Shown piece by piece: positions 6,194 through 18,757 of a DNA stretch of 24,769 nt. A program made the translations under genes and the position numbers. Origin of the DNA: a virus; the IMG/VR virus record IMGVR_UViG_3300032006_000078, positions 1 to 24,769 of that record; one strand, 5' to 3'. The notes under the pieces were generated by a model. It had not been told where the DNA came from. It worked only from the letters and a program-made list of their open reading frames with translations, and made no database searches. Each line of letters starts with the position of its first letter. Position 1 is the stretch's first letter.

Positions 6194-6201
6194 TATTTAT
6201 C
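6194..6201 (-). promoter_or_regulatory. Candidate T4-type late promoter before gp25
   Basis: The minus strand reads GATAAATA, one base from the T4 late -10 consensus TATAAATA. It is positioned 21-28 bases upstream of the gp25 ATG and merges with the TGA stop of the preceding gene (TGATAAATA). The predicted transcript start, around 6187, would leave a short leader that still includes the GGAG ribosome-binding site. In such AT-rich DNA one match can arise by chance. Confidence 0.4.
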
Positions 6202-9200
6202 AGGTTGAATCCGGATACTGCCTAGTATCTGCAGTCTCACCGGAACTCGGATCAACAATTTTATGATATCCACCTAAAGATGATCCACCTTTGGCTGGGG
6301 AGGTCATATCCGGCCAATTTTTATTTGAGAGCACATCAAGATCCTGATATACTTGTTCCGCGAGTGCATTGACGTATGTTAAATGATCTGTAAACGCTTG
6401 CCTACTTTTTTGAACCTTTTCTGATTTTGCTGCCACTGTTGCCCCTGCGTCTGAAATTTTAACCGACCAGTTTTCATGATATTTAAACATCTCTATTGCT
6501 CCTTGTGCACCTTGACGAATAGGAGCAGAAATCGCAATATATTCTACACCAATTGTTTCTTCAATCGATGCAGTAATCTCAGTATCTGAACCAAATGAGA
6601 TAACTAATATATCATCTTGAGAAACACCTATTCCCATCCATGAAGATGCTATACCTTCTCCGGCAACCTGGCCTAGGGCTGTTTCTTCTACTGCGCCAAT
6701 ATTATCTGGTTCATCTAAGAATTGATCAGATAAAGGTGATGTTCCGTTTAATTTTATTATAGTTCCTCTTGGATAATAAGATTCAGTACGTTTTGCTCCT
6801 GTAGTGCCGACTGTATCATCTTCAAATAACGGAAGATCTTTATATTCTCCGTTAGATTCCGGAGCAACTACCGAAACAGTATTAGCTTTAGCATAAAATT
6901 CTCTTAATCTATAACCCGGATGCTTATAATGAGTAGTATTTGCAGCATTATCGGTTGTATTATAAGGCGGAAAGTTTTGGGATTTAGGGAAAAATATATC
7001 ATAAGATAATGCTACACCTACATCAGCTTCAAATGCTTCGTCTAAAACAGCCACAGTTGAATTAGATAATTTTTCAACTGCCCTGGTACTCCCTGAAGCA
7101 TCAGAAAGAGGATCCATTATAGTAATTGTGGTATTCTTTTTAATTTTACGATCACCTTTAAGAAAATCGTCAGTATCCACAAAATCTTTAAATTGGCCGC
7201 CGCCCACTAACATCAATGTTTTTCCTTTAGTTCTTAAACTTCCTGGTCGAACACCATCTGGATTTTCCGCAGAGTAAAGTGTCGCGGTTCCAGACACGAT
7301 TTGCATTATATCAATTTCAGTTATTATTTCCTCAATTCTTTCAACCAACAAATCTAATTCATATATACAATTATCCCTCATTTGTTTTAATTCTATAAAA
7401 ACATTATAATTTTCTCCTTCAAATAAGCCAGTCAAAATATTTATTTTACCAAAAAGTGCAACTTTCATTATTTTTGATCTTAAAGAAGCAGCACTTGGGC
7501 CATCTAGTATGTTTAGAATAGATTGTAAACTTGTTTTAGCTAAATCTAACCAAGCTAATTTGTCTTTCTTTAATTGTTGTGGGCTTCTAGGATCTCCTGC
7601 GATTACTTCCTCATCCGGGCCTAGATCTAGATCGAGTGGTTTCCAGAAAACACCATTAAGAATATAAAGCCCAGAAGGAACACCAGTATCGGGATCTACT
7701 GCAGTGTCTTTAATTAATGGTGCTCCAGTCTCTGATGGATCATCTTTAGTATCCAATATACATTCATAGTTCTTTCCTCTATAATATACTTTATCACCTT
7801 TCTTATAAAACTTTGTTGTTGGATTCCCATCTTTATCAAGTGGACCAACATTTGTCCAAGCTGGAATAGCTAATTGAGTTAATTTTGCTTGTGCTTTCTT
7901 TTCGTCTGCTGTTTTATCTCTCACACCTAATAATAAAGCTAACATGTTTATAGCTTTCTTGGTTGCGTTTGTTGCAGATCCCCCACCTAAAAAACAAAGC
8001 CCAGCACAAAATTTTAAATCTTCTGGTGGCTTATTTGGGCCGCCGGCACTCAACATTCTTTCTCTAAAAACCTTTGTTCCTCCGGCTTTTGGTTTAAGAT
8101 ATAGAGTATATACGCCGGTTGCTGGTAATCCGTTGGCAAATAAATCTAATATATTTTCAATATCTTTCCCAAAAACTTCTAATTCGGCTACTTTATTATC
8201 AAGCCATTTTATAATCGGATCAAAAGATTTTCTAGCTACTGCAACAGTTGCTTTCATTCCTCGTACTTCACCTTCAACTTTATCAAGAAAAGGCCCCCAC
8301 CCAGGAAATAATGTCTCTAAACTTTTACCATACCAATTAGGAGGATTTCCTACTCCCTCACCAATAAAAGAATTAACTACTCTTCCTACTGTAACTTGCC
8401 CCGGTTTAATTTGACCATATGTGGTTCCCATCGGGCTGGCCTCTGCATCTTTTATTACATCATCTACTTTTGTTACTTTACCATCGTCTGTGGTTGAATG
8501 CATTGCCGATGTGGAGGTTGGTAGGCATTCATATATTAACTCACCGGGTTTAAATTCTTCACCGGGAAACTGCATCACAACATCTAATATTTGTTGCTGA
8601 TATGGTAATACATTTTTATTTACTTTTTCAGTTTTAGACATTGCTCTTATTCTGCGTTCTGTCAAATCCATATCTCGAGATGCTTCAGGACCAGCATTCC
8701 AACTCATATCTGCTGGTTTATATTCTTCTAATAACATATTTTTAGTTTCAACAACTTCTTTTATTCGCGCCACCTTCCCCCCATCAGTCATAATTCTTCT
8801 GTCGGTCATTCTGGGGCCTTTATTTGGTTGTGCTCTAAAAGATCCTGCCCTTTCAGCTTTTTTGTGAAATTCTTCTTGTGCAGCTTCATCTGCTCCCGCG
8901 ACGAGGGTTGTATCATCGTATAGCTGTCCGCCGGCGCTTTGCTCTTCCTTCGTCAATTTTCCAATATCAATATTTGCAACATGTTGTACTTTAATTCGGT
9001 GAGTGGCTTCATCATCTTCCCATAATTTAACAATATCTTCTGTCATAGACTTAAAAGATCTTACATCAAAAAATTTTTGAAAATTTTCCATAACTGTTAG
9101 GAATCTATTAGCATCTGGTGCACCTATAATAAAAATCATTCCACCAACAACAGATGAATCTGAAAAAATTGGACGACCAGATTGATAATAAGACGGATCC

Positions 9201-10168
9201 ACCAAGTTCTCTAATTTTTTCATATCAGTAGGGTTCCACATTTCCTTTGTAATCTTTTCCCCATCTGTGGTTTTCGCTGTTCCTTCTCTAATCTTTTTTA
9301 ATATATGCTTCGGAACATCATTTGCATCATCAAAAGATTCATCTATAGTTCGTAAAATTCCCTGCGGAGTTAATTGTACTAAATGAGTCATTGGATTGAC
9401 CATCATGAGAGTTTGCTTCGCTAGCGCCACAGCTCCCGTTGCGGATCGGCCTACGTCCCCCGCGTCTGCGCCACCGCCCTGTAGAAGTAAGCTATCCGGA
9501 TTTACATTATCCAGGACAGTATTCATAGGCTGCACAGAAGCATCTGCAACATAATTTATTTCACCAGAGATTGGATCTCTAGCAACATTCATTGCATCTA
9601 TTTGTTCCCGAGACATTGACTGCATTTCTGTAGCCCTTTCCCTGGCACCCTGAAGCACTCCACTTGAAGGGGCTACTGTACCGGGCACAAACCCGGCGGG
9701 TACTAATTCTCCTTTCATATTTCTTCTAGCGGGCACATAAGCTTGACCACCAACAAAAAGCGTACCAGTTACAGGATTTTTTGTTACATTTTGTCTGACA
9801 GAAGTAGCGGTAACAGGAAGCATATAAAAACCAAGAGACTTCAAATCTTGTAATATTTTTATAATTTCATCTAAAATTGCATCAAGTGCCGCGAATAAGG
9901 GATCTATCGTGGATAATAAAAAAGCTTTATTTATTTCATAAAAATCTCTAACAAATTTTGAATTTGCTTTATGAAGGTCTAAAGCTTTTTGAGCACATTC
10001 AGCAAAAGCTTTTATGTAAGAATTATCACCTAATGTTTGAGATTCCCAAAGATCTGGCCCTGTATCTTCTTCTTCTCCGATGTTAAAAATCGGACCGGCT
10101 GCTTCCTCTCCAGCTTCAGTTTGAGTCGTTCCGAAGACTCCTGCTCCTCCAATAGTTATTTCAGCCAT
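6200..10168 (-). CDS. Large virion structural protein (1322 aa) between gp5 and gp25, with carbohydrate-binding-like insert
   Basis: This 1322-aa protein is encoded between the hub/gp5 genes and gp25. It has no T4 homologue I recognise, but large proteins at this spot are typical of marine T4-like phages and are virion components. Residues about 1-40 are acidic and low-complexity. Residues about 60-115 form helical, coiled-coil-like segments (LHKANSKFVRDFYEINKAFL). Residues about 768-843 resemble a CBM5/12 chitin-binding type 3 domain: AW, then FYKKGDKVYYRGKNYEC, then a closing VFWKPL. After this comes a helical region with EDL-type repeats (ELDLLVERIEEIITEIDIMQ) and a beta-rich C-terminal third. 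The start overlaps the preceding 63-aa gene by 8 bases. A baseplate or tail location is inferred from context. Confidence 0.75.
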   Translation of the reverse strand: MAEITIGGAGVFGTTQTEAGEEAAGPIFNIGEEEDTGPDLWESQTLGDNSYIKAFAECAQKALDLHKANSKFVRDFYEINKAFLLSTIDPLFAALDAILDEIIKILQDLKSLGFYMLPVTATSVRQNVTKNPVTGTLFVGGQAYVPARRNMKGELVPAGFVPGTVAPSSGVLQGARERATEMQSMSREQIDAMNVARDPISGEINYVADASVQPMNTVLDNVNPDSLLLQGGGADAGDVGRSATGAVALAKQTLMMVNPMTHLVQLTPQGILRTIDESFDDANDVPKHILKKIREGTAKTTDGEKITKEMWNPTDMKKLENLVDPSYYQSGRPIFSDSSVVGGMIFIIGAPDANRFLTVMENFQKFFDVRSFKSMTEDIVKLWEDDEATHRIKVQHVANIDIGKLTKEEQSAGGQLYDDTTLVAGADEAAQEEFHKKAERAGSFRAQPNKGPRMTDRRIMTDGGKVARIKEVVETKNMLLEEYKPADMSWNAGPEASRDMDLTERRIRAMSKTEKVNKNVLPYQQQILDVVMQFPGEEFKPGELIYECLPTSTSAMHSTTDDGKVTKVDDVIKDAEASPMGTTYGQIKPGQVTVGRVVNSFIGEGVGNPPNWYGKSLETLFPGWGPFLDKVEGEVRGMKATVAVARKSFDPIIKWLDNKVAELEVFGKDIENILDLFANGLPATGVYTLYLKPKAGGTKVFRERMLSAGGPNKPPEDLKFCAGLCFLGGGSATNATKKAINMLALLLGVRDKTADEKKAQAKLTQLAIPAWTNVGPLDKDGNPTTKFYKKGDKVYYRGKNYECILDTKDDPSETGAPLIKDTAVDPDTGVPSGLYILNGVFWKPLDLDLGPDEEVIAGDPRSPQQLKKDKLAWLDLAKTSLQSILNILDGPSAASLRSKIMKVALFGKINILTGLFEGENYNVFIELKQMRDNCIYELDLLVERIEEIITEIDIMQIVSGTATLYSAENPDGVRPGSLRTKGKTLMLVGGGQFKDFVDTDDFLKGDRKIKKNTTITIMDPLSDASGSTRAVEKLSNSTVAVLDEAFEADVGVALSYDIFFPKSQNFPPYNTTDNAANTTHYKHPGYRLREFYAKANTVSVVAPESNGEYKDLPLFEDDTVGTTGAKRTESYYPRGTIIKLNGTSPLSDQFLDEPDNIGAVEETALGQVAGEGIASSWMGIGVSQDDILVISFGSDTEITASIEETIGVEYIAISAPIRQGAQGAIEMFKYHENWSVKISDAGATVAAKSEKVQKSRQAFTDHLTYVNALAEQVYQDLDVLSNKNWPDMTSPAKGGSSLGGYHKIVDPSSGETADTRQYPDST

Positions 10169-10353: not shown

Positions 10354-12480
10354 TTAATCTGCTAATAATAAGTTTAAATTCTTTTGAGACTGGATTGCCT
10401 GAACAGCATTATATATCCACTCGGGCGCTACACTAGTTCCCTGTGCCTTTGCCATTGCTCCTGGCATAAGAGATCCCGTATTGGTAGCCCCAACAACGGC
10501 GTGAGAATGATTTAAATAATCTTGCATGAACTCATCAAGAATTCTTCTTAGAGAAATTATTTGATTTTTAATCGCAATAGTACCTCCAGCATCAATTGTC
10601 ATTTCTGCTGTTGCTGTTTGCATTTTAGCCTCTCCTTGGGGGCCGTTCGTAGACATTAAAACACTTCCACCATCATTTTTCCCAGCGATAGATATTTCTC
10701 CAAGCTTGTTTGCCATTGTTACGGGTCCAAATTGTGATGCTAATTTTATTTTGGCTGATGAAGGATCTTGTGGACCGATAGGCATAATAGAAAGATAACC
10801 GCTAGCATTAACAGGCGAAGCGGAAGGCATAGCATTTAATTGTAACAGACAACCGCCATTTTGAACAATACCGCCACTTCTTATATTAATAATACCGTTA
10901 GTAACACTGATCTTTTTTGCTTCTGTACCGTCGCCGGTTAATACATTGGCACCAGTAATAACTTCTTCGCTTCTATGAGTAACACTTAGTAAACTATTCT
11001 GAGCGGACAGCGCCATAGCAGCTGTTGATCCAACAGCAAATTTCCCACAATTTATAGCTCTTTCGCCTATTATATCTTCATGGAAATGTCCGGATCTTTT
11101 AATATAAGTCCTTAAACCTTCACCCTCTGGATCTGGGTTCATGGGTCCGCCATGCCTTGAAGGTTCTTCTGCTACAGTTTCTCCTTGAGTATATTTCTTA
11201 GTATTCATTACGATTTCTTCTTTTGCATTAAATTCGATTCGGTCTGCTTTAATAAAAGCAATCCCGTCTCTACAATACATTTCAATATTACCACTTTCTG
11301 ATTCCATATGAACATCCCCGGAACCTTTAACTCTCAACCAATAATCATCTGTTCCATGGTCGGCATTTACCATTAATTCATATCCTTTATGTATAGTTGA
11401 AAATTTATCACCTGCTATATGTTCGTAAGAATTTCTTAAAACGCAAGACCAATAATCCTCATTTGATTTATCAACTATTGTACCTTGGGGGTGCATTTCT
11501 CGATATGATCCGGACCGATGATACCAATGTAATCTTTCATGTGAAGGGGTGTCATCAATCTCAATAGCATGCCCACTCTCTGATACATGTACATGATTAT
11601 ACGGATACGTTGCATCGTAAGGGGGTTCTGGTTCTCGAAATGTATTAGGAGATTTTACTCCTTTAGCTTTCCACGCCGTACCCATTCTTAAATCCATTTT
11701 TGTTTGAACTATAGAATTATTATCTCCCCAGTCTTTTATAATTAATTCACTTTTAGTATTTGTACCTAATATAGATTTAAGACGTGTACTTTTATCGGCG
11801 AATCCTCTGGCCAGTCTCGGAGTTGTTGGTTCTCCTAAAAATCTTTCGAGGGGATAATTATAACTATATTCATAATCTGGTAATACTGTACCAGGCGTCG
11901 TTCCTTCGCCTCCAGGTCCAGTTGATTCTGGAACAATTTCATCACCGACTACTTTAGTAGCTTTATCAGATCTTTCAAATATTTTAATACGATTTACAGC
12001 AGGAAAAGGTGGTCTTTGTTCAGTATCAAATTCAACTTTTAAAGGATGTTGTGGTACATTTGTAAATTCTACCTTTTCAGTTCTAATATTTCCAAGTTCA
12101 TCCACATCATAAAACGTTGGAAACCAATCTCTCGGGTCATTAAAACCTTCATCGGGATTACATGGTAAATCCGGCCGACCCGGTAATGTGCCAAGCATAA
12201 CGGGATCACTAGCATCTTCTCCATCTCTAAAAAAACCCATTATCCAAGAACCTTCTACTGGTCCAGTTGGACTAGTCCCAACACCGGTTTGAGAAGCAGA
12301 AGTAAGCGGCATTAAAGGAAAAGCCCATGGCAAAGCATCTGTAGGCAAATCTTGTTTATCTTTAGTATGCCAACCTAGCCATCTTACTTTACATCTTCCC
12401 AGATATAAAGGATCAAATCTATTTTCAACTACTCCGACGGCCCAGGTAAAGCCTTCTTTGCCCATAAAATTTGGTTCCAT
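10354..12480 (-). CDS. 5: Baseplate central spike / hub protein gp5 (lysozyme domain absent)
   Basis: This 708-aa protein is the gp5/VgrG-like spike. Residues about 10-105 form the OB-fold (WAVGVVENRFDPLYLGRCKVRW...GSWIMGFFRDGEDASDPVMLGTLPGRP), which plugs the hub. Residues about 290-345 carry the characteristic ESGHAIEIDDTPSHERLHWYHRSG motif that opens the spike. After this, repeated short beta strands (MESESGNIEM, EFNAKEEIVMNT, GIINIRSGG) form the C-terminal beta-helix needle, ending near NHSHAVVG. T4 gp5 has a lysozyme domain between the OB-fold and the needle. Here that interval (about 110-290) shows no glutamate-based lysozyme motif and instead holds Pro/Gly-rich linkers. The start has a good ribosome-binding site (AGGGGAAC) and lies 11 bases after the 699-aa hub gene. 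Confidence 0.88.
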   Translation of the reverse strand: MEPNFMGKEGFTWAVGVVENRFDPLYLGRCKVRWLGWHTKDKQDLPTDALPWAFPLMPLTSASQTGVGTSPTGPVEGSWIMGFFRDGEDASDPVMLGTLPGRPDLPCNPDEGFNDPRDWFPTFYDVDELGNIRTEKVEFTNVPQHPLKVEFDTEQRPPFPAVNRIKIFERSDKATKVVGDEIVPESTGPGGEGTTPGTVLPDYEYSYNYPLERFLGEPTTPRLARGFADKSTRLKSILGTNTKSELIIKDWGDNNSIVQTKMDLRMGTAWKAKGVKSPNTFREPEPPYDATYPYNHVHVSESGHAIEIDDTPSHERLHWYHRSGSYREMHPQGTIVDKSNEDYWSCVLRNSYEHIAGDKFSTIHKGYELMVNADHGTDDYWLRVKGSGDVHMESESGNIEMYCRDGIAFIKADRIEFNAKEEIVMNTKKYTQGETVAEEPSRHGGPMNPDPEGEGLRTYIKRSGHFHEDIIGERAINCGKFAVGSTAAMALSAQNSLLSVTHRSEEVITGANVLTGDGTEAKKISVTNGIINIRSGGIVQNGGCLLQLNAMPSASPVNASGYLSIMPIGPQDPSSAKIKLASQFGPVTMANKLGEISIAGKNDGGSVLMSTNGPQGEAKMQTATAEMTIDAGGTIAIKNQIISLRRILDEFMQDYLNHSHAVVGATNTGSLMPGAMAKAQGTSVAPEWIYNAVQAIQSQKNLNLLLAD

Positions 12481-17203: not shown

Positions 17204-17812
17204 ATGAGTCCAGATCAATTTATAACAGCATTAGATAAGGGTAAAGGTTTAGCTCCTTTAAATAGATTTGTAGCCAAAATTAAATTTCCTGATGCATTAA
17301 AACCACAAGCGACTACGGAAGAATTATCATTGTTTTGCGATTCAGCTCCGATGCCGGGAAGAACGATAGCAACTGCAGAATTAAGACATTATGGTCCAAC
17401 ACGAAAAGTTGCAAGAGAAATGACCTATGGAGAATTTTCATTAGGATTTATAATGACAAATACCCACAGTGCAAGAAACTCATTTTTACAATGGATGGAT
17501 TATGCAGTAAATCCTGTAACAGCGGACATGAGATATTCTTCACAATATAAAGGTTCCGTTAAAGTATTAATGTTTGCGCAAGATTCTATTGGTTTAAGTT
17601 CCTCTGAGGCTTCTTTTGGCGCTGAATATTTAGAATCATTTCCAACAGTTGTTGATCCAATTACTTTGGGTTGGGATCAAACAAATACTGTGGGAAAATT
17701 TAATGTAACTTTTCATTATAAAACATGGAAACCATTAGCAGCAGCTGGTTATGCAGATCCGAATGCCGGAAGCACATTTGCGTTTGGTGAAGGCCAATTT
17801 GAAGCAACATAA
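17204..17812 (+). CDS. Tail-tube-fold protein (gp19-like)
   Basis: This 202-aa protein has the tail-tube signature: RFVAKIKFP near residue 22, LSLFCDSAPMPGRTIATAE (about 41-59), an RHYGPTRK turn, EFSLGFIMTN, the SFLQWMDYAV helix, and a late GKFNVTFHYKTWKPL strand. T4 gp19 is 163 aa. The protein could be the major tube or a paralogue placed at the tube end. The major tube normally lies with gp18 and gp20, which are not visible in this window. A CGGAG ribosome-binding site precedes the ATG. It is followed by the tape-measure chaperone and the tape measure, the same order as in lambda-type tail modules (tube, chaperone, tape measure). Confidence 0.7.
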   Translation: MSPDQFITALDKGKGLAPLNRFVAKIKFPDALKPQATTEELSLFCDSAPMPGRTIATAELRHYGPTRKVAREMTYGEFSLGFIMTNTHSARNSFLQWMDYAVNPVTADMRYSSQYKGSVKVLMFAQDSIGLSSSEASFGAEYLESFPTVVDPITLGWDQTNTVGKFNVTFHYKTWKPLAAAGYADPNAGSTFAFGEGQFEAT

Positions 17813-17855: not shown

Positions 17856-18566
17856 ATGGCATTACCAACCGTGAACAGTCCCACATATGAACTTAAATTA
17901 CATAGTGTGGATCAAAAAATAAAATATAGACCTTTTTTAGTTAAAGAAGAAAAGATCTTATTAACCGCCCTAGAAGGTGGTGAAACTGCAGACATTGTAA
18001 GAGCTACAAAAGAAATCATTAAAAATTGTTGCCTTACGGATAATATTGAAATTGAAAAACTCCCTGCTTTTGATATAGAATTATTTTTTCTAAATTTAAG
18101 AGCGCGCTCAGTTGGCGAAAATGTTGAAGTTAACTTATCCTGTCAGGAAAAATCATGCGAGGGGGAAACACCGGTCGTAGTTAATCTTGATGGCGTTGGT
18201 TTAGATACTGGCAAAGATCATAAAGATATAGTAAGGCTTACTGATAAAATAAAGGTTAAATTAAAATATCCAAATATTGATAGAATGACAAGGCCTCCTG
18301 ATGAATCTCAAATGGATTCTATTTTTGAAATAACCAAAGCATGTATAGACACAATTCAGGACGGTGATGAAATGCATGATATAAAAGATTATACAGAGAC
18401 AGAAATAGAAGATTTTATCATGTCTTTAAATCAACAACAATTTGGAAGTATTGTTGCTTTTTTTAATACTATGCCAAAATTAAGACATAAAGTAGGTTTT
18501 ACTTGTCAAAAATGTAATAAAAAACAAGAAGTAGTCTTGGAGGGGCTACAATCTTTTTTCGGCTAG
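17856..18566 (+). CDS. 26: Tape-measure chaperone / baseplate hub assembly protein gp26
   Basis: This 236-aa protein belongs to the T4 gp26 baseplate family (T4 gp26 is 208 aa), which acts in hub and tape-measure assembly. Visible features are the N-terminal YELKLHSVDQKIKYRPFLVKEEKILL (residues about 11-36), a four-cysteine set (CQEKSC at about 110-115 and CQKC near 221-224) that could bind zinc, and a C-terminal segment ending SFFG. The ribosome-binding site GGAGATATA precedes the ATG. The last codons contain a TTTTTTC slippery run just before the TAG stop, after which a coding-like frame continues for 65 codons with no start codon of its own. It lies directly before the tape measure, as G does before H in lambda. 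Confidence 0.8.
   Translation: MALPTVNSPTYELKLHSVDQKIKYRPFLVKEEKILLTALEGGETADIVRATKEIIKNCCLTDNIEIEKLPAFDIELFFLNLRARSVGENVEVNLSCQEKSCEGETPVVVNLDGVGLDTGKDHKDIVRLTDKIKVKLKYPNIDRMTRPPDESQMDSIFEITKACIDTIQDGDEMHDIKDYTETEIEDFIMSLNQQQFGSIVAFFNTMPKLRHKVGFTCQKCNKKQEVVLEGLQSFFG
18554..18560 (+). promoter_or_regulatory. Programmed -1 ribosomal frameshift site (T TTT TTC)
   Basis: The zero-frame codons here read TCT TTT TTC GGC TAG, so the heptamer T TTT TTC fits the X XXY YYZ rule exactly. Both tRNAs can re-pair as TTT TTT after slipping back one base. The zero-frame stop follows one codon later at 18564-18566. The new frame, beginning with CGG at 18560, stays open to a TAA at 18755. A stem-loop candidate lies downstream. 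Confidence 0.75.
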
Positions 18567-18757
18567 CGCTCAGTCATAATAGTTTACATAACTATTATAG
18601 AACTCTATTCGCTATCGTCCAAAGTCATAAATGGAGCTTAGCTGAGCTGGAAAATTTAATTTGTTATGAAAGAGAAATATATCTTACATTATTGATAGAA
18701 TTTATTGAAGAAGAAAATGAAAGAATGGAACAAGAAGCAGCTAAATATAGAAATTAA
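18560..18757 (+). CDS. -1 frame extension of gp26 (gp51/GT-like), made by frameshift
   Basis: This frame encodes 65 residues and is joined to gp26 through the slippery site, giving a predicted fusion of 300 residues encoded by 17856-18757. No ATG, GTG or TTG exists in this frame between the in-frame stop at 18518 and the far downstream part (first TTG at 18692, first ATG at 18725). Independent translation of most of it is therefore unlikely. The sequence looks coding: it begins RLALSHNSLHNYYRTLF, continues with KWSLAELENLICYEREIYL, and ends in a charged helix. This parallels the T domain of lambda gpGT, which recruits the tape measure. The position also matches T4 gene 51, which lies next to gene 26, though I cannot show sequence homology to gp51. 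Confidence 0.7.
   Translation, partial: RLALSHNSLHNYYRTLFAIVQSHKWSLAELENLICYEREIYLTLLIEFIEEENERMEQEAAKYRN
18576..18598 (+). repeat. Perfect 9-bp hairpin downstream of the frameshift site
   Basis: ATAATAGTT at 18576-18584 and AACTATTAT at 18590-18598 are exact inverted repeats around a TACAT loop. The stem begins 15 bases after the slippery site, further than the usual 5-9. No T-run follows, so it is not a terminator. A second possible stem pairs GCTCAG (18568-18573) with CTGAGC (18642-18647), which begins 7 bases after the slip site and would enclose this hairpin. Confidence 0.45.

Follow-up and report, generated by a model that had tools for sequence, protein, structure and literature searches.

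A probable programmed -1 ribosomal frameshift joining gp26 to a gp51-type domain in marine T4-like phages

Results

The gp26 gene of a marine T4-like phage very probably encodes a tail assembly chaperone and uses a programmed -1 ribosomal frameshift to yield a short form and a C-terminally extended fusion. The window analyzed here is the whole 24,769-base record of this phage, whose DNA matches in the phage collection are all short; relatives of its gp26 are about 45% identical in that collection, and closer relatives, at 80 to 86%, occur in IMG/VR. The features of the locus are given in Table 1.

Table 1. Features of the gp26 locus and its neighbors in the window
Feature	Position	Strand	Basis
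Tail tube family protein, immediately upstream of gp26	17204..17812	+	PHROG 45, E 4.6e-33
gp26, short chaperone form (TAC-N), 236 aa	17856..18566	+	Pfam T4_baseplate PF12322, E 1.1e-63; PHROG 150, E 4.9e-69
GGAGGGG, Shine-Dalgarno-like candidate stimulator within gp26	18539..18545	+	Sequence; 8 nt upstream of heptamer
Slip heptamer T TTT TTC	18554..18560	+	Sequence; T6 heptamer in phase across homologues
-1 frame, C-terminal domain (TAC-C, gp51 family), 65 codons plus TAA (18755-18757)	18560..18757	+	PHROG 634, E 1.3e-23
Zero-frame stop TAG, one sense codon past heptamer	18564..18566	+	Sequence; equal spacing in 87/94 homologues
Predicted RNA hairpin ATAATAGTT-TACAT-AACTATTAT, candidate downstream stimulator	18576..18598	+	40-nt fold, -8.5 kcal/mol, z about -3
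Probable tape measure protein, 771 aa	18772..21087	+	Position and size only

The gp26 junction

The zero-frame codons at the end of gp26 read TCT TTT TTC GGC TAG. An earlier note, made from the letters of this DNA alone, had described an in-frame T TTT TTC followed one codon later by a stop, and both are present in the right phase. Past a stop at 18518, the -1 frame stays open up to its TAA; its post-slip part ends, as the note had it, after 65 codons just before the tape-measure candidate. It was also correct that this frame lacks a start codon until near its end: the earliest ATG, GTG, or TTG past the slip is a TTG at 18692 (codon 45 of 65), and the earliest ATG is at 18725. The predicted fusion (TAC-NC) is exactly 300 residues long, where about 300 had been expected, and the short form has 236. 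A programmed -1 frameshift that fuses gp26 to a second domain, as first proposed, appears to be the best reading of this arrangement, with slip site and open frame found in the sequences of all homologues surveyed.

The slip site is conserved across the T4-like loci surveyed

The slip site is kept in all homologues surveyed, the outcome of an alignment of gp26 and its downstream region that the earlier note had suggested. We compared two sets of loci. Set 1 holds 94 unique loci, of which 80 come from IMG/VR and were retrieved with a pattern matching the N-terminal part of gp26, and includes phages of Synechococcus, Prochlorococcus, Pelagibacter, Vibrio, Rhizobium, and Sinorhizobium; set 2 holds 80 loci fetched through the C-terminal end or domain, some on contigs common to set 1. 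A T6 heptamer stands in phase at the end of gp26 in 94/94 T4-like gp26 genes of set 1 (85 TTTTTTC, 5 TTTTTTT, 3 TTTTTTA, and 1 TTTTTTG) and is present in 80/80 loci of set 2 (61 TTTTTTC, 14 TTTTTTA, and 5 TTTTTTT), counts that do not represent independent events, since the members of both sets are related and partly overlapping.

Within set 1, the base before the slip codons is T in every gene (94/94), the zero-frame stop falls exactly one sense codon past the slip in 87 of the 94, and the -1 extension measures 57 to 69 residues. Codon choice at the junction is biased: TTT-TTC is used there in 85/94 genes, compared with 7/94 for other Phe-Phe pairs in the same genes, which are mostly TTC-TTT or TTT-TTT.

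Departures from the common pattern were also seen. In Pelagibacter phage Mosig (L009, 1195-1228), the zero-frame stop lies 8 codons past the slip instead of 1, and the short form therefore has a longer tail. Loci L131 and L136 carry a T9 run (GATTTTTTTTTAT) in place of T6C, and transcriptional slippage could also act on such runs.

The -1 frame encodes a gp51-type domain under purifying selection

The translated -1 frame of the window matches PHROG 634, "baseplate hub assembly catalyst" (gp51), and three helices are predicted for it, in keeping with its earlier description as protein-like and helix rich. A tblastn search with this frame matched 482 phage records, mostly of cyanophages; in the records compared, the -1 match overlaps the end of the gp26 match by its final base, a step back of one base. 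Among 91 aligned homologues, the -1 frame has no stops in 50 codons, versus means of 5.7 and 4.7 in the other frames, and its pN/pS is 0.22, versus 1.05 and 2.25 (91 aligned extensions). The PHROG match, these values, and the codon choice at the junction lie far outside chance, and the -1 frame domain is under purifying selection. The earlier note had allowed that homologues might lack a conserved open -1 frame; it is open in all those surveyed. Constraint is weaker over the first seven codons (pN/pS of 0.57 versus 0.97 and 1.78), which stand ahead of or around most candidate ATGs, and a conserved R-[ILV]-x-[ML]-x-H motif directly past the slip precedes any ATG.

The position of these residues bears on whether gp51 might instead be a separate gene, with its own start or expressed by termination-reinitiation near the TAG at 18564. 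GenBank records either list gp51 as a CDS of its own or leave it out; a joined CDS for gp26/gp51 is absent from all 12 annotated frameshift-type records that we inspected, and in the annotations of S-PM2, P-SSM2, and Bellamy gp51 starts at about the post-slip ATG. Homologues with a real start, named in the earlier note as evidence against frameshifting, do exist in number: in set 1, the first ATG past the slip is at codon index 3 in 46/94 and at index 6 in 18/94. The slip site is kept in those genomes too, however, as it is in all members. Moreover, the window and its near relatives (loci L005 and L101) have no ATG, GTG, or TTG until codon index 43 to 55, 35/80 loci of set 2 have no start before codon index 12, the residues ahead of the ATG are conserved, and T4 gp51 carries the domain fused. 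A separate gp51 gene is therefore improbable. In its favor stands the distant Dickeya phage phiDP23.1 (Ackermannviridae; L019, 2290-2460), in which the stop of gp26 and the start of the gp51-like frame overlap as TAATG and the junction lacks the T6 slip site; this sequence suggests reinitiation as an alternative solution. Since an ATG stands 3 to 6 codons past the slip in many relatives, reinitiation could add a separate small protein there.

Candidate stimulators flank the slip site

The GGAGGGG of the window has a predicted anti-SD pairing energy of -9.8 kcal/mol. Across the family, the best anti-SD pairing averages -7.56, versus -5.42 (standard deviation, 0.14) under synonymous resampling. 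The Leu-Glu-Gly upstream of the slip is encoded so as to yield a GGAGG-like sequence: the Glu codon is GAG in 67/85 compared with 31% elsewhere, and the Gly codon is GGG in 26/92 compared with 7% elsewhere.

Downstream, the first 16 codons past the slip fold more stably than expected from amino-acid-preserving resampling (mean z of -2.08 in the family and -2.4 in the window). The excess is limited to these codons, the later -1 segments having mean z values of -0.37 and -0.79. Hairpins of 9 to 14 bp are predicted in many members (14 in S-PM2, 11 in P-SSM2-like phages, and 9 in the window). RNAalifold returned no consensus downstream structure for the family because the hairpins are lineage specific, and a search of Rfam gave no match.

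The Escherichia coli dnaX cassette is built of an upstream SD-like element, a heptamer, and a downstream hairpin. The gp26 junction has the same three-part layout; dnaX differs in being a cellular gene with an A-rich heptamer.

A T run could also invite transcriptional slippage, by which an altered U count would give rise to the fusion from a changed mRNA, and runs of T7 to T9 occur in a few members (L017, L131, and L136). Nearly all members have just six T's, however, against the nine A or T residues of the examples in PMC5009743, and in 85/94 a C closes the run. The fixed phase, the SD-like element, and the hairpin fit ribosomal slippage, and we regard the transcriptional route as very improbable. 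Homopolymer runs are common sites of sequencing error, but we reject an erroneous or decayed frame, with next to no probability left to it, because the site recurs with an equal phase relation in 94 homologues, including cultured and separately sequenced phages.

T4 has paralogous genes in place of one gene with a probable frameshift

T4 serves as a natural control. PF12322 matches both of its hub assembly chaperones, T4 gp51 (E 4e-52) and T4 gp26 (E 9e-64). T4 gp51 is a single ORF that runs on into the PHROG 634 domain, which it has in common with the -1 frame of the window. T4 gp51 aligns gap-free across the slip point, and T4 gp26 stops there at ...EFFELL; the T4 forms are therefore paralogous genes, as opposed to the one gene with a slip site in the window. 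T4 gp51 corresponds to the predicted fusion from end to end and T4 gp26 to the short form. The earlier note had named genes 26 and 51 as separate T4 equivalents of the two parts. They are indeed separate, but gp51 is not the second domain alone: it is a gp26 paralogue with the second domain in frame.

In 1334 phage records, T4 gp51 is matched over nearly its whole length. In T4 and in Acinetobacter phage Konradin the two forms come from two divergent genes, whereas the window has one gene with a predicted -1 frameshift; it does not contain two separate full-length genes as in T4, and the domain occurs only in the -1 frame of gp26. Vibrio phages VH7D and 6E35.1a (Straboviridae) keep the slip site. 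We lean toward a history in which the dnaX-like three-part cassette (SD-like element, T6, and hairpin) is near universal in the chaperone gene of T4-like phages from the sea and of several others, and the T4 pair arose by later duplication and in-frame fusion, leaving the marine state as the candidate ancestral one.

Predicted folds

The two parts of the fusion, gp26 and the C-terminal domain, were predicted apart. In the AlphaFold2 model of gp26 (pLDDT 89), residues 1 to 96 gave as the best of 997 alignments 3fgx (Z 8.0), the HK97 tail assembly chaperone 2ob9 (Z 7.5), and YqbN 3klu (Z 6.8), at a Z level at which chance arrangements occur; the next matches had Z values of 5.0 and 4.1. The likeness is only suggestive because Foldseek E values for the model were not significant. 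The model suggests that the N-terminal part of gp26 is like tail assembly chaperone folds. The C-terminal domain was modeled as three helices (pLDDT 86) and, searched alone, gave no clear structural match. A sequence search of the PDB returned only a leucine-rich repeat design, which looks like a chance match.

Discussion

Our proposal follows phage lambda gpG/gpGT (PMC5009743), by analogy with which we infer slippage, its frequency, the proportion of the two forms, and a chaperone role toward the tape measure. Most ribosomes would terminate at the TAG at 18564 and release the 236-residue gp26. A minority would pause between GGAGGGG and the downstream hairpin, slip from TTT TTC to TTT TTT, and continue in the -1 frame, giving the 300-residue fusion with its gp51-type helical domain. 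The N-terminal part common to both forms may coat the tape measure protein encoded by the adjoining gene, and the extra domain of the minor form may recruit parts of the tail tube or baseplate hub, as the lambda model would predict.

The comparison with lambda, already drawn in the earlier note, is apt given the in-phase slip site and the open, selected -1 frame. In lambda gpG/gpGT and HK97 gp14, and probably in the window, a -1 slip toward the 3' end of the gene that precedes the tape measure gives a second form extended C-terminally; the predicted N-terminal fold may be similar. The window differs in its T TTT TTC slip site, in extra beta and metal-ribbon-like parts, and in the T4-like contractile tail, and we did not find a sequence relation to the lambda and HK97 proteins. 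Phage P2 has a contractile tail, and its E/E+E' locus may resemble the gp26 locus. A -1 frameshift producing E and E+E' within the P2 tail gene operon is attributed to Christie et al. (2002) in PMC12859696. The TAC locus of Vandenendeviridae and Andersonviridae, as described in PMC12846349, is also alike, with a conserved GTTTTT slip motif, an open -1 frame, and a downstream tape measure, although these are other phage families and are likened here by locus description.

The G-T frameshift was called conserved among long-tailed phages "except T4" in a 2016 review (PMC5009743), and the earlier note knew of no such description for T4-like phages. That statement was too strong. The tail assembly chaperone genes of T4-like phages were identified by Vladimirov, Gautam, and Davidson (2022, Virology 566:9-15). 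In secondary accounts, the same work is credited with poly-T -1 signals in T4-like TAC-N genes (PMC12846349) and is cited for T4-like phages in which a short gene is accompanied by a separate gene for the long fusion, in place of frameshifting (PMC10885494). We found no cyanophage cases in PRFect, GeneTack, or recoding reviews. The frameshifting kind of tail chaperone gene is thus known (lambda G/GT and P2 E+E'), and, going by these accounts, T4-like cases have already been described, at least partly; what may be added to the earlier work is the statistics on the SD-like element and the hairpins and the range of marine phages surveyed.

These comparisons tie T4 gp26 and gp51, long named and poorly understood, to the short and long chaperone forms of the lambda type. 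Abundant ocean phages very likely hold both forms in one frameshifted gene, and gp51 is therefore misannotated or missed in cyanophage records.

Other genes of the window

Two further genes of the window lie on the minus strand. A 1322-residue ORF in the baseplate region (6200-10168) has no PHROG match at E 0.001. The gene at 10354-12480 encodes a gp5-like baseplate hub and tail lysozyme protein, in which the lysozyme domain may have diverged or be missing, since the strongest PHROG stretch covers the N-terminal part only. The tape-measure candidate downstream of gp26 has no Pfam, PHROG, or NCBIfam match and shows neither a PF18013 nor an ART-like match. Both are seen in the presumed tape measure of S-PM2, the gene after gp51 (L181, 957-4460), in which PF18013, a phage tail lysozyme domain, is matched at E 7e-25 and an ART-like match lies at the N terminus (E 1e-5).
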